Of a stretch of 22,643 bases of DNA, positions 18,758-22,643 are shown one piece after another. The stretch lies in IMG/VR virus record IMGVR_UViG_3300007363_000117, positions 1-22,643 of that record; one strand, given 5' to 3'. The notes beneath the pieces are model-generated. The model made no database searches, was not told where the DNA came from, and saw only the letters and a program-made list of their open reading frames with translations. Each line of letters begins with the position of its first letter. The stretch's first letter is position 1. The position numbers were made by a program, and so were the translations under genes. Source of the DNA: a virus.

Positions 18758-20224
18758 ATGCAAAAAAAGTTTGATTTTGAATTTGAAGACTCTGAGATAT
18801 CTGAGATTCAGGAAAAGATAAAAAAAGATTTATCTAAGCCAGTTTTATTAAGAGGCCCTTATGGAAAAAGTTCTGTAGAATTATATGAAGTTAGAACAAG
18901 TTTTAGAGATAACGCTTTAAGAATACAAAATGACTTCATACCAAGCGTAAGAGTACCTAATCCACAACTGGAAAACAGAGCAATTAAAGATTTTTATATA
19001 AATGAAAGATATAATATAGGGAAATTAGACCTCAATGATTCTGTAATATTACCAAAACAAGAAAAAATAGTATCATCAATTTATTATCCTAGTACCGGTA
19101 TCTCGCAACCAAAAGCTTTTGATTTTGTTGTAAAAGCATATGAAGCGATGAAATTTAGGCTACAGAATGCCATAACAGAAGGAAAAGTTTTTGCACCGCC
19201 AATAGGTTCCAATATTAATGATGACTCTGGTAGAATCTATGAATTAAAATTTATTAAAGGATATACTGACCCTGTTACGGAATACACTAGAAGAAACTTT
19301 GTTCCGATATTTCGTCAATTATTTGAGTATTTTTCTCAAAAATCTAAGTCCATTAAAATCAGAAATTTTTCGGATTATATAGATGTATATGTTTCTTTCT
19401 TGTTACAACCATCTAGTTTTTCAAGTATTAGACAAAAAAACTATTTTATAACAGATTATGTTTTATCAACTCAAAACAGTCTATTGAACACAGGTCTATT
19501 CATAGAGATACATAATCCAGGGGCTGGAGCTTATAACGATATATCGTATCCTATAAAAAACTTTTATCAAGATATAAATTTTTCATTTTATCAAGATTTA
19601 GCATTCTCTTATGGATTCATAATAGACAAAAATATTCCATGGAGACTTATGGCAGATATTAGTTCACCACAAATGCAATCATTCATATATCAATCTAGTC
19701 CAAATCTTTTAAAATTTGAAAGATTAGATACGCAAACTATTTTAGAAGAATATTATAATCCTATAGAAGTTGATTATACCTACTACATTTACGAACTTAT
19801 GACATCCTATAATAATTTCATAGACACTTATGGTATAAATTTTAAGTATTTTGAAGAGACTAAATGTCATACTTTACGTTCTGTTTTCGCAAAAAGAGAA
19901 AAAATTGTTTTTGATAATTTAACTAATGAAGAAAATTATAAATTAATGTCTTATTACATTTTATTAAAAAATAAGTTTTCCACAATTAATTTTCCGAAAC
20001 AAGAGTTAGAATTCCTTAAGAGAACTGCACTTTCGGCTTATAAATTAAATGGTCTAGACTCAGCAATAAAGTATATTGACAGTAAGTTTACATTTAATAA
20101 TCATTACCCCGGAAGTCTCCAATACGAGGAGACTAAAAAGTTTTTTAAAAACCAAGGATATGATATTAGTGCTAAACAAGCAATATTAGAAAAATATTAT
20201 ATTGAAGCATTTAATCCCATTTGA
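18758..20224 (+). CDS. Unrecognised 488-aa protein at the end of the tail gene cluster
   Basis: An acidic N-terminus (FDFEFEDSEISEIQEKI) is followed by a protein unusually rich in Tyr, Phe, Ile and Asn, with no signal peptide, membrane segment or catalytic motif that could be recognised. CGGAG at 18745-18749 lies 8 bases before the ATG, giving a clear start. It follows the hub candidate after 18 bases and precedes the polymerase by 11 bases. Its base composition is AT-rich like the tail genes, not like the polymerase, so a structural (baseplate or fibre-attachment) role is more likely than replication. That is inference from position alone. Confidence 0.78.
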   Translation: MQKKFDFEFEDSEISEIQEKIKKDLSKPVLLRGPYGKSSVELYEVRTSFRDNALRIQNDFIPSVRVPNPQLENRAIKDFYINERYNIGKLDLNDSVILPKQEKIVSSIYYPSTGISQPKAFDFVVKAYEAMKFRLQNAITEGKVFAPPIGSNINDDSGRIYELKFIKGYTDPVTEYTRRNFVPIFRQLFEYFSQKSKSIKIRNFSDYIDVYVSFLLQPSSFSSIRQKNYFITDYVLSTQNSLLNTGLFIEIHNPGAGAYNDISYPIKNFYQDINFSFYQDLAFSYGFIIDKNIPWRLMADISSPQMQSFIYQSSPNLLKFERLDTQTILEEYYNPIEVDYTYYIYELMTSYNNFIDTYGINFKYFEETKCHTLRSVFAKREKIVFDNLTNEENYKLMSYYILLKNKFSTINFPKQELEFLKRTALSAYKLNGLDSAIKYIDSKFTFNNHYPGSLQYEETKKFFKNQGYDISAKQAILEKYYIEAFNPI

Positions 20225-20235
20225 TAGAGTGATTT

Positions 20236-21408
20236 ATGATTTTTCAAACCCTTGACGACAAGCCTGACTGCCCGTGTTACTATGTGGGCGGTGAGGCGAT
20301 GATGACCCTTGTAGGAAACAATTTTAAAACTTGGTCTTGGAACCCGAACATTCCAAGTGGTGCCGAAGTAGCACAGATTTGGACCGGCGGCAAGTCTCTT
20401 GAAGAAGTTTGTCCGGAAAATCTAAAAGACAACTTTAAGACAATTGACAATAAACTAAAAGCATTATATAGATCTTTTAATATTGCTAAAATTGATCTTA
20501 ACGAAACCTGCTTTTATGACCTAGTTAATGAAGGGGACATAAAAGAGTATGCAACTCTTAAAGATAAAATTACTGAATCTGTTTTTCAGAATTATTCCAG
20601 ACCCATCAACTATGGATTTATGGTTTCGCTTTATGCGTCTCTTGCAGAGATTGAACGAAACAATGTAAATATTGATTGGGAATGGTTGGCAACAAAGAGA
20701 TTTACCCAGAAAGGCAAAGCAGTTTGGGATAAACTACAAAACTCAAACAAGAAAATTGCTTTCTCTCCTTATGGTTCAAAGACAGGTCGCTTGACTTTGA
20801 AGGATAATGCTATCCCAATTTTGAACTTGGATAAGGAATACAGAAAAGCATTTAAACCAAACAACGATTGGTTTGTGGAATTTGATTACAACGCTGCCGA
20901 TTTGCGTTCTTTCTTCTATGTCTTGAATAAACCACAACCAAAAGGCGATCTTCACGATTGGAATACCACAGTTGTCTATAAAAATGCTATTGACAGAGAC
21001 CAAGCAAAGAAAGCGATGTTTGCTTGGTTGTATGATCTAAACAAAGAAGATCAACAATTGGAAAAGTATTACGAAAGAAACAAAATACTTGACACCTTCT
21101 ACAAAGAAGGTAAGATTGTAAATCCTTTCGGAAGAGAAATAGAGTGTGATAAAGACCACGCTATTCCTTATCTTATTCAATCAACCACAGCGGACTATGT
21201 TTTGAGGAGATTGAATGAAGTTAATGTTCTTTTGAAAGACAAAAACACAAAAATCTTCACAACAATCCACGATTCTATTGTTATTGACCTTGATTGGTCA
21301 GAAAGAGCGATTATTAACGACATTCTTGCTGTCTTGCGTAAAGACAACTTTGTCGTTAATACCTCAACAGGCAAGAATTTTGGAGAAATGAGAGAAATTA
21401 AACTATGA
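20236..21408 (+). CDS. Minimal family A DNA polymerase (no exonuclease domain)
   Basis: A 390-aa protein with the palm and fingers core of DNA polymerase I. Visible motifs are T183-G184-R185 (SKTGRLT) and motif A D217-Y218 (DYNAADLR, with Asp in place of the usual Glu). Motif B has R254, K258, F262 and Y266 at the standard spacing (RDQAKKAMFAWLYD). A glutamine motif follows at Q315 (LIQSTTAD), and motif C is H345-D346 (IHDS, with Ser in place of the usual Glu). Both metal-binding aspartates are kept, so activity is plausible. Residues 1-120 show no 3'-5' exonuclease motifs. A separate exonuclease gene might lie elsewhere. T4 itself uses a family B polymerase, so this is a distinct replication module. 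Its stop overlaps the next gene's start (ATGA). Confidence 0.85.
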   Translation: MIFQTLDDKPDCPCYYVGGEAMMTLVGNNFKTWSWNPNIPSGAEVAQIWTGGKSLEEVCPENLKDNFKTIDNKLKALYRSFNIAKIDLNETCFYDLVNEGDIKEYATLKDKITESVFQNYSRPINYGFMVSLYASLAEIERNNVNIDWEWLATKRFTQKGKAVWDKLQNSNKKIAFSPYGSKTGRLTLKDNAIPILNLDKEYRKAFKPNNDWFVEFDYNAADLRSFFYVLNKPQPKGDLHDWNTTVVYKNAIDRDQAKKAMFAWLYDLNKEDQQLEKYYERNKILDTFYKEGKIVNPFGREIECDKDHAIPYLIQSTTADYVLRRLNEVNVLLKDKNTKIFTTIHDSIVIDLDWSERAIINDILAVLRKDNFVVNTSTGKNFGEMREIKL

Positions 21409-22226
21409 ATGTGATTGGTCTTGGTAATGTTGGATCAAAAATAGCAAAGTGTTTTGAGAAATATCCTCAATACACTGTCGGAACCATCGCAAACCAAGAC
21501 CACGGAGACACAGTAATAGTAAAAGAACAAAGTCATCCAGAAAAATATGAATCTCTAGCCCCGAACCTAGAAAAGATTATTAATTCTTTAGAAGACGAAG
21601 TTCTTTTTATTGTTTGCGGTGCTTCATTCACTTCGGCTTTGTCTTTGGTTGTCTTGGAACAACTGAAACATAAGCCAGTTGATGTTCTTTACATCAAAAC
21701 AGACACAGAAATGTTAAGCCAAATGAAGAAGATGCACGAAAAAGTCGTTTATAATGTCCTTCAACAGAAAGCAAGGTCAGGGGCATTCAGAAACCTTTAC
21801 ATAGTGTCAAACCAAAAGGTGGAAGAAACTCTTGGAGACCTTCCAGTTATTGGATTCTGGGATAAAATAAATGATTTCATCGCTTCGACTTTTCATATGG
21901 TCAACGTTTACACACACCAAGACCCCGTAATGGGAGTTTTAGAGGCTCCACCCGACACTTGTAGAATCTCTACTGTAGGTGTCAAGGAGTTGTCAGGAGG
22001 GCAGGAGACAGACCTGTTTGAACTTGACAGCGCTAGGGCGACCCGTTATATGTATGGTGTGAACGAGGACAGACTGAAAGCATCCTCCGACACACTCAAA
22101 AAAATCAAATCAGAACTGAAAACTAAAATAACCGAAGACCATTCGGTTTCTTATGGGATTTACCCAACCACATATAAAGTGGACTATTGTTGGTTTATCA
22201 AATCAACATCAATCATTCAAAGTTAA
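21405..22226 (+). CDS. Divergent FtsZ/tubulin-like protein (candidate)
   Basis: A 273-aa protein whose layout follows the FtsZ/tubulin core. It has an N-terminal strand and glycine loop (VIGLGNVGSK, residues 3-12), then a strand and loop at residues 66-78 (VLFIVCGASFTSA) where FtsZ has its GGGTGTG signature. A helix (LEQLKHK), a strand (VDVLYIKTD), a long helix, a strand ending VSN (N136), and an Asn-bearing helix (FWDKINDFIAS) follow, as in the FtsZ nucleotide-pocket region. The signature loop lacks the GGGTG glycines, so GTP binding may be altered. A Rossmann NAD-binding protein is the main alternative for the N-terminal GxGNxG. Translation is coupled to the polymerase through ATGA. Assigned by eye from motif order, so moderate confidence. 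Confidence 0.5.
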   Translation: MNVIGLGNVGSKIAKCFEKYPQYTVGTIANQDHGDTVIVKEQSHPEKYESLAPNLEKIINSLEDEVLFIVCGASFTSALSLVVLEQLKHKPVDVLYIKTDTEMLSQMKKMHEKVVYNVLQQKARSGAFRNLYIVSNQKVEETLGDLPVIGFWDKINDFIASTFHMVNVYTHQDPVMGVLEAPPDTCRISTVGVKELSGGQETDLFELDSARATRYMYGVNEDRLKASSDTLKKIKSELKTKITEDHSVSYGIYPTTYKVDYCWFIKSTSIIQS

Positions 22227-22289: not shown

Positions 22290-22643
22290 ATGGCTATTGA
22301 TCTATCTAAAATGAAGGCTAAACTAGAGGCTCTGCGTAGCAAGGGCGAAGGCGGCGGCGATAAGCAGTCCGTTCTATGGAAGATTACTGACGGTGACCAC
22401 GATGTTCGTATTGTAAGTCCATCAGACGGCGATCCGTTCCGCGATCTACACTTCCACTACATGGAAGTTAATGGCAAGAACGTTTCGGTTCTGTGTCCAA
22501 AGCGCAACTACGGTGATGAGTGTCCAGTTTGTGAGTTTGCTTCTGCACTATGGAAGGAGTCTTCTGCATCAGGCGACCAAGAGGGAATGAAGATGGCGAA
22601 GTCACTATTCGTCAAGCAACGCTTCTTCTCACCAGTTTTGGTT
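22290..22643 (+). CDS. gp32: ssDNA-binding protein, T4 gp32-like (3' partial)
   Basis: The first 118 residues of a gp32-type single-stranded DNA-binding protein; the frame is open to the window end. The zinc site is clear: H56-x12-C69-x8-C78-x2-C81, compared with H64-x12-C77-x9-C87-x2-C90 in T4 gp32. The sequence around it (MEVNGKNVSVLCPKRN, then ECPVCEFASALWK) also fits. A basic N-terminus (KMKAKLEALRSK) corresponds to the gp32 region that drives cooperative binding between monomers. AAAGGAG at 22276-22282 lies 7 bases before the ATG. The gene uses GC-richer codons, like the capsid gene, fitting a highly expressed protein. It probably coats template DNA for the polymerase encoded upstream. 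Confidence 0.9.
   Translation, partial: MAIDLSKMKAKLEALRSKGEGGGDKQSVLWKITDGDHDVRIVSPSDGDPFRDLHFHYMEVNGKNVSVLCPKRNYGDECPVCEFASALWKESSASGDQEGMKMAKSLFVKQRFFSPVLV

Follow-up and report, generated by a model that had tools for sequence, protein, structure and literature searches.

Could replication in some T4-like phages be organised by a cytoskeletal fold? The question is raised by a 273-residue protein encoded in the virus record IMGVR_UViG_3300007363_000117, the whole stretch of which, 22,643 bases of DNA from a T4-type phage, is referred to here as the window. A first-pass annotation had placed an FtsZ-like protein beside a phage polymerase and adjoining gp32 in a T4-type genome. This setting is borne out: the upstream neighbour belongs to polymerase family A, the downstream gene matches a gp32-like PHROG family, and the major head protein, tail sheath and baseplate hub likewise match PHROG families and are T4-type. 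The genes concerned are:

20236–21408, plus strand: family-A DNA polymerase of 390 aa, the upstream partner gene (Pfam DNA_pol_A, E 9e-10)
21405–22226, plus strand: tubulin/FtsZ-superfamily protein of 273 aa (AlphaFold2 model, VIA and Foldseek comparisons)
22290–22643, plus strand: gp32-like single-strand DNA-binding protein, 5′ part, as the window ends inside the gene (PHROG 1192, E 6e-15)

The end of the polymerase gene overlaps the start of the 21405–22226 reading frame through the sequence ATGA, and a full-length homologue of the gp32-like gene, in locus L001, matches Pfam gp32 with an E-value of 2e-13. The polymerase keeps the palm/fingers motifs DYNAADLR, R-x3-K and HDS, and its catalytic motifs are conserved in the family alignment; no exonuclease domain was recognised in its 390 residues, a size (∼390 aa) that is kept across the loci of the clade. 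Almost always directly 5′ of the polymerase lies a conserved gene, of 488 aa in the window (18758–20224; family c5, ∼430 aa), which has no Pfam or PHROG match. The closest homologues of the tubulin-like protein are 83–96% identical to it, and their dN/dS values of 0.05–0.13 indicate that the gene is under purifying selection. Since these values are low and distant homologues (34–45% identity) occupy the same genomic position, we conclude that the gene is real.

In order to define the fold, an AlphaFold2 model of the window protein was built from 62 sequences (mean pLDDT 93.2, pTM 0.91). The best Foldseek match was TubZ (E 4e-13), with many FtsZ chains at E ∼1e-12, and all 50 PDB matches listed for this model belong to the tubulin family. 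VIA-align matched the model to CetZ 3zid_B (Z 25.0, 253 residues, rmsd 2.7), TubZ 4ei7_B (Z 23.2, 269 residues, rmsd 3.1) and FtsZ 2r6r (Z 23.1, 263 residues, rmsd 3.4), the alignments covering residues 1–273; PhuZ chains are absent among the best 50 VIA matches, which carries no weight either way. A second model, of a family member on a 204-kb contig (L208) and built from a separate alignment of 49 sequences (pLDDT 95.1, pTM 0.92), matches CetZ, TubZ and FtsZ at Z ∼21–23 across residues 1–281. Both models contain a Rossmann-like GTPase domain, a central helix H7 and a C-terminal mixed sheet domain. The FtsZ-like order of elements that had been noticed from residue 3 to about 165 thus extends through all 273 residues of the model, and the structure prediction and fold search that had been proposed as a check return tubulin, FtsZ, TubZ and CetZ over both domains in two models. 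It is virtually certain, judging from these models, that the protein adopts the two-domain fold of tubulin and FtsZ from end to end.

Sequence comparison alone is insufficient to place the family. A single-sequence search of Pfam, PHROGs and NCBIfam gave no significant family for the window protein, and scores of the family against Pfam PF00091 and TIGR00065 stay under the curated cut-offs. Of the 62 members, 5 match Pfam Tubulin weakly (best E 0.02) and 4 match TIGR00065 ftsZ weakly (best E 0.03), whereas Pfam TrkA_N outscores both models (best E 9e-6, in some members), as is expected because the GxGxxG loop is common to both. A profile search of PDB sequences with the family missed FtsZ, and hhalign against a single FtsZ or a single PhuZ was not significant; against an alignment of 18 FtsZ sequences, T1 and T4 fall in register at a P of only ∼0.007. 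In profile searches, the other check that had been suggested, the FtsZ signal is weak.

A search with the window protein yielded four close relatives, and iterated searches of IMG/VR raised the family to at least 527 loci, with contigs as long as 172 kb (204 kb for loci found through the polymerase). One viral scan used as bait a consensus blended by hand from the window protein and close relatives; it served for fetching loci only, and the analyses that came after it rest on the loci's own sequences. When three different family members were compared by tblastn with 50,697 phage records, no relative was found; weak matches in one of these searches (E 0.1) proved to be terminase genes and were rejected. 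Cellular copies were sought in GTDB, and the one match lies on the WOR-3 MAG chromosome CP070664.1, where an unknown gene, polymerase, tubulin, gp32 and RecA are bounded by N runs (L102:3505–8864). This fragment looks like a piece of the phage operon, either an assembly chimera or a phage insertion. The uncultured T4-like phage group that carries the family is large and known almost only from metagenomes.

The gene order is shared by ∼90 loci: a ∼1,000-aa gene, the ∼430-aa unknown gene, polymerase, tubulin, gp32, RecA/UvsX, 5′–3′ exonuclease and DnaB helicase, followed in one locus (L094) by a class II ribonucleotide reductase. In 36 of the 74 loci compared, the polymerase and tubulin genes overlap by 4 bases. 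Linkage was assessed independently by a polymerase-led scan that was blind to tubulin, in which 79 newly fetched loci, a few on contigs already seen, were checked. Tubulin lies just downstream of the polymerase in all 78 testable loci, the remaining one stopping 9 bases past the polymerase. A small conserved protein (∼81–106 aa; L013:7142–7384 and orthologues) comes after tubulin in ∼15 of the first loci; it could be assigned to no family and is a possible partner of tubulin.

Judged by capsid and helicase, the closest isolates are Flavobacterium phage immuto and Microcystis phage Mel-JY01. They have the same replication operon and a related T4-type capsid, but their slot between polymerase and single-strand DNA-binding protein (SSB) is filled by other small genes. 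The same holds for an uncultured 484-kb phage that has the operon common to the tubulin clade. The tubulin-family HMM gave no match in the genomes of these three phages, while the same query detects the WOR-3 record; the idea that the immuto slot contains a tubulin in two pieces was rejected. Among the tubulin-less relatives, a common gene of 129–151 aa with the motif HRKKxxNTxYTINxLN lies between polymerase and SSB and is a possible alternative occupant of the slot:

L143, 1346–1801: 129–151 aa slot gene
L099, 11980–12369: 129–151 aa slot gene
L144, 11267–11656: 129–151 aa slot gene

Tubulin seems to belong to the core genes of one T4-like clade, in which its position is fixed. Since the nearest isolates have the operon without the gene, it is not required for replication of this kind.

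The nucleotide site was then defined from secondary-structure order and conservation, with residues counted over 116 non-redundant sequences. The relevant elements of the window protein are:

21411–21446, plus strand: T1 loop and start of H1, residues 3–14, VIGLGNVGSKIA (family IIGLGxAGCNIA, of the FtsZ G-x-G-x-x-G-x-N type)
21615–21638, plus strand: T4 loop, residues 71–78, CGASFTSA (usual family form GGSGxISG; FtsZ GGGTGTG)
21762–21779, plus strand: residues 120–125, C-terminal end of H5, with Q120 (116/116), R124 (115/116) and S125 (116/116)
21810–21812, plus strand: N136 at the end of S6 (T6), guanine-contact position (N in 110/116)
21855–21896, plus strand: central helix H7, F151–H164, with N156 (110/116) and H164 (112/116)
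21915–21965, plus strand: expected site of the T7 loop and H8, residues 171–187, mostly variable, without NxDxxD and without a helix

The glycine-rich T1 loop follows S1, with G5 and G7 invariant and G10 present in 115 of the 116 sequences. S5 ends in xPD in most members. H7 spans residues 151–170 in the window model, and in most members an aromatic residue stands four positions before N156; this aromatic-x3-N arrangement matches the tubulin pattern Y224/N228, and we take N156 to be a guanine-contact position. The strict T4 signature, GGGTGTG or GGGTGSG, is absent from the family, while the loop itself is in the expected place. The earlier observation that CGASFTSA replaces GGGTGTG holds for the window, but this is an extreme variant of the window's small clade and the family form is usually GGSGxISG. 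The same small clade is further degenerate (G74 to S, P99 to T, and D29, the likely T2 aspartate, to A), with N136 and N156 kept. Taken together, the conserved sequence positions suggest that most family members probably bind a guanine nucleotide, GTP or GDP.

At residues 171–187, where T7 is expected, there is no conserved acidic motif, neither NxDxxD nor the tubulin glutamate; helices H8 and H9 are absent from both models, and the window protein ends five residues past S10. In Staphylococcus aureus FtsZ, the T7 residues N208, D210 and D213 and the T2 residue D46 are each needed for assembly, and D210 and D213 are catalytic, acting on the nucleotide bound by the adjacent subunit (PMC8936486). 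Considering that the family lacks this T7 set, canonical FtsZ-type assembly and hydrolysis would be unlikely, and T7-type hydrolysis is very probably absent from the family. The suggestion, made from the letters of the window, of a non-hydrolysing scaffold fits the lack of the T7 loop and H8 in the models.

The pocket has decayed further in some lineages. In six non-redundant members (L155, L168, L174, L175, L180 and L221) both N136 and N156 are lost and T4 carries E or D at position 74; Q120, R124 and S125 are kept in all six. On a tree built without the trait columns, the joint loss corresponds to four changes, and two independent pairs remain when only well-supported branches are considered. 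Because N136, N156 and residue 74 were lost together in about four lineages, the pocket residues appear to act as one unit, which in turn would support nucleotide binding in the other members. Retention of the gene despite pocket loss suggests a conserved task that does not need nucleotide in every lineage. A second tubulin copy, as in an alpha/beta-like pair, was sought in the pocket-lost loci and none was found, each locus having one copy. In a separate locus (L181:5167–6018) a stop or frameshift divides the tubulin gene into two open segments, which is either real decay or an assembly error.

Q120, R124 and S125 at the end of H5, together with H164 and N167 at the end of H7, mostly conserved, are family-specific. 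From the topology of the fold they would lie on the face opposite the nucleotide, in the place of T7. In addition, each of the six pocket-lost loci has a gene resembling NTP pyrophosphohydrolases inserted between its polymerase and tubulin genes, compared with an insert of any kind in 24 of 100 others (Fisher P 3e-4, with loci counted as independent though they represent about four events). The inserts, named from sequence, are:

L155, L175, L180 and L221: MazG-like inserts
L168 (2931–3335) and L174 (6306–6713): NUDIX-like inserts

The link between insert and pocket loss is suggestive.

How might such a protein act? On balance, we favour a role of the family in phage replication. Our preferred reading, to which we assign a probability of about 0.42, is that of a minimal, hydrolysis-deficient tubulin-fold subunit. 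Most members would bind GTP or GDP without hydrolysing it by the tubulin mechanism, so that the subunit would serve as a nucleotide-bound scaffold, or a nucleotide-free one in some lineages. The family-specific face (Q120, R124, S125 and probably H164 and N167) would be in contact with either a further subunit or a protein of the replisome, and these contacts would gather or position the phage replication complex. The operon position of tubulin may instead reflect expression timing. A more specific version, possible but not one that we would favour, is a dedicated non-cytomotive replisome component, made from the polymerase message, for which GTP would be a structural ligand only, dispensable in several lineages, while the contact face is kept.

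Alternatively, the protein could form cytomotive filaments of the PhuZ/TubZ kind that position or segregate phage DNA, with GTP turned over without T7, for example by R124 or H164. Phage tubulins that position or segregate DNA exist (PMC4244570). The full two-domain tubulin fold and the conserved guanine-contact positions speak for such a filament, and a replacement longitudinal contact could be provided by the family-specific residues that are conserved where H5 and H7 end. However, the family is without the T7 NxDxxD, H8 and H9, there is no C-terminal extension past S10, the pocket has been erased in about four lineages in which the gene was retained, and the gene context is all replisome. 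We therefore consider filaments of this kind rather unlikely.

Another possibility is an accessory factor of the replisome (a polymerase clamp-like protein, coupling protein or nucleotide sensor) that would use the tubulin fold without ever building filaments, being monomeric or assembled into a closed oligomer. Its strict adjacency to the gene of the exonuclease-less polymerase of 390 aa, and the overlap that the two genes often have, point in this direction, as do the fixation of Q120, R124 and S125 even where the nucleotide site is gone and the MazG or NUDIX gene at the 6/6 pocket-lost loci. The enzyme association is, however, based on about four events, and we regard this alternative as unlikely. 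A further argument against it is that no replisome known to us has been described with a tubulin fold among its parts.

It is improbable that the protein is a decoy which imitates FtsZ and thereby poisons the division ring of the host, a possibility that the first-pass annotation had also considered. FtsZ is inhibited by other phages, for example by lambda Kil (PMC3961180). An FtsZ-like fold without the catalytic T7 would make a plausible capper, but at ∼12% identity and with T7 and H8 missing, the face that would have to mimic FtsZ is not FtsZ-like, and the gene is strictly linked to the polymerase, in a replication operon and not among small host-takeover genes. Finally, an ordinary NAD(P)-binding Rossmann protein resembling FtsZ by chance, for which the GxGxxG loop and the best sequence match, to Pfam TrkA_N (E down to 9e-6 in some members), would speak, can be dismissed with near certainty: the matches listed in both PDB and both VIA comparisons are tubulin-family chains covering both domains at Z 20–25, the models have a tubulin C-domain where a single Rossmann domain would have none, and a plain NAD(P)-binding fold, named beforehand as the outcome that refutes the FtsZ-like assignment, did not occur.

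Most known phage tubulins come from jumbo phages (PhuZ) or from partition systems (TubZ), the two settings in which the open-access literature describes them. Two FtsZ/tubulin types have been noted in jumbo phages (PMC7824862; PMC7162821). Within the open-access literature, we found no account of a tubulin beside polymerase and SSB in T4-like phages. The proteins described here are roughly as long as a tubulin core without additions, and their gene is tied to replication genes. It has no match in the records of isolates and seems to be part of the core gene set of a large T4-like clade. Within this one orthologous gene the nucleotide site ranges in nature from intact to erased, so that what GTP binding, hydrolysis and the T7 surface each contribute to a tubulin fold can be compared. 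If the protein were indeed a non-cytomotive replisome component, the tubulin fold would here serve a purpose different from those that it has in cell division, DNA segregation and the cytoskeleton.

Among known systems, PhuZ (201phi2-1 gp59, phiKZ gp39) is likewise a phage-encoded tubulin fold. The 315-aa PhuZ of 201phi2-1, however, is encoded among unrelated genes and not beside polymerase and SSB, hhalign of the family against it gives P 0.03 over 44 columns, and the C-terminal tail past S10 that is used in PhuZ filament contacts is absent from the window protein. Two phage FtsZ-like proteins in BFVD, A0A6J5RW92 and A0A8S5UFG9, match the fold (E 4e-14 and 2e-11) but are 387–452 aa long and 10–15% identical, and so are not close members; no close relative of the window family was seen in the BFVD search. 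TubZ of plasmid and phage partition systems (4ei7, 2xka), which works with the DNA-binding partner TubR and the tubC centromere, is matched at Z 23.2 over 269 residues (Foldseek E 4e-13), its chains being ∼380–410 aa and 14% identical compared with 273 aa for the phage protein. Archaeal CetZ (3zid, 4b45) gives the best structural match (Z 25.0 and 24.2 over 253–256 residues, rmsd 2.5–2.7) at 13% identity; its chains are longer (∼330–340 aa against 273 aa) and, unlike CetZ, the phage protein is without the T7 catalytic residues, H8 and H9. Compared to FtsZ, the family has ∼12% identity, falls under the PF00091 cut-off and is without GGGTGTG, NxDxxD, H8 and H9, but it shares with FtsZ the T1 motif GxGxAGxN, KP after S5, the asparagine that ends S6 and the aromatic-x3-polar pattern in H7.
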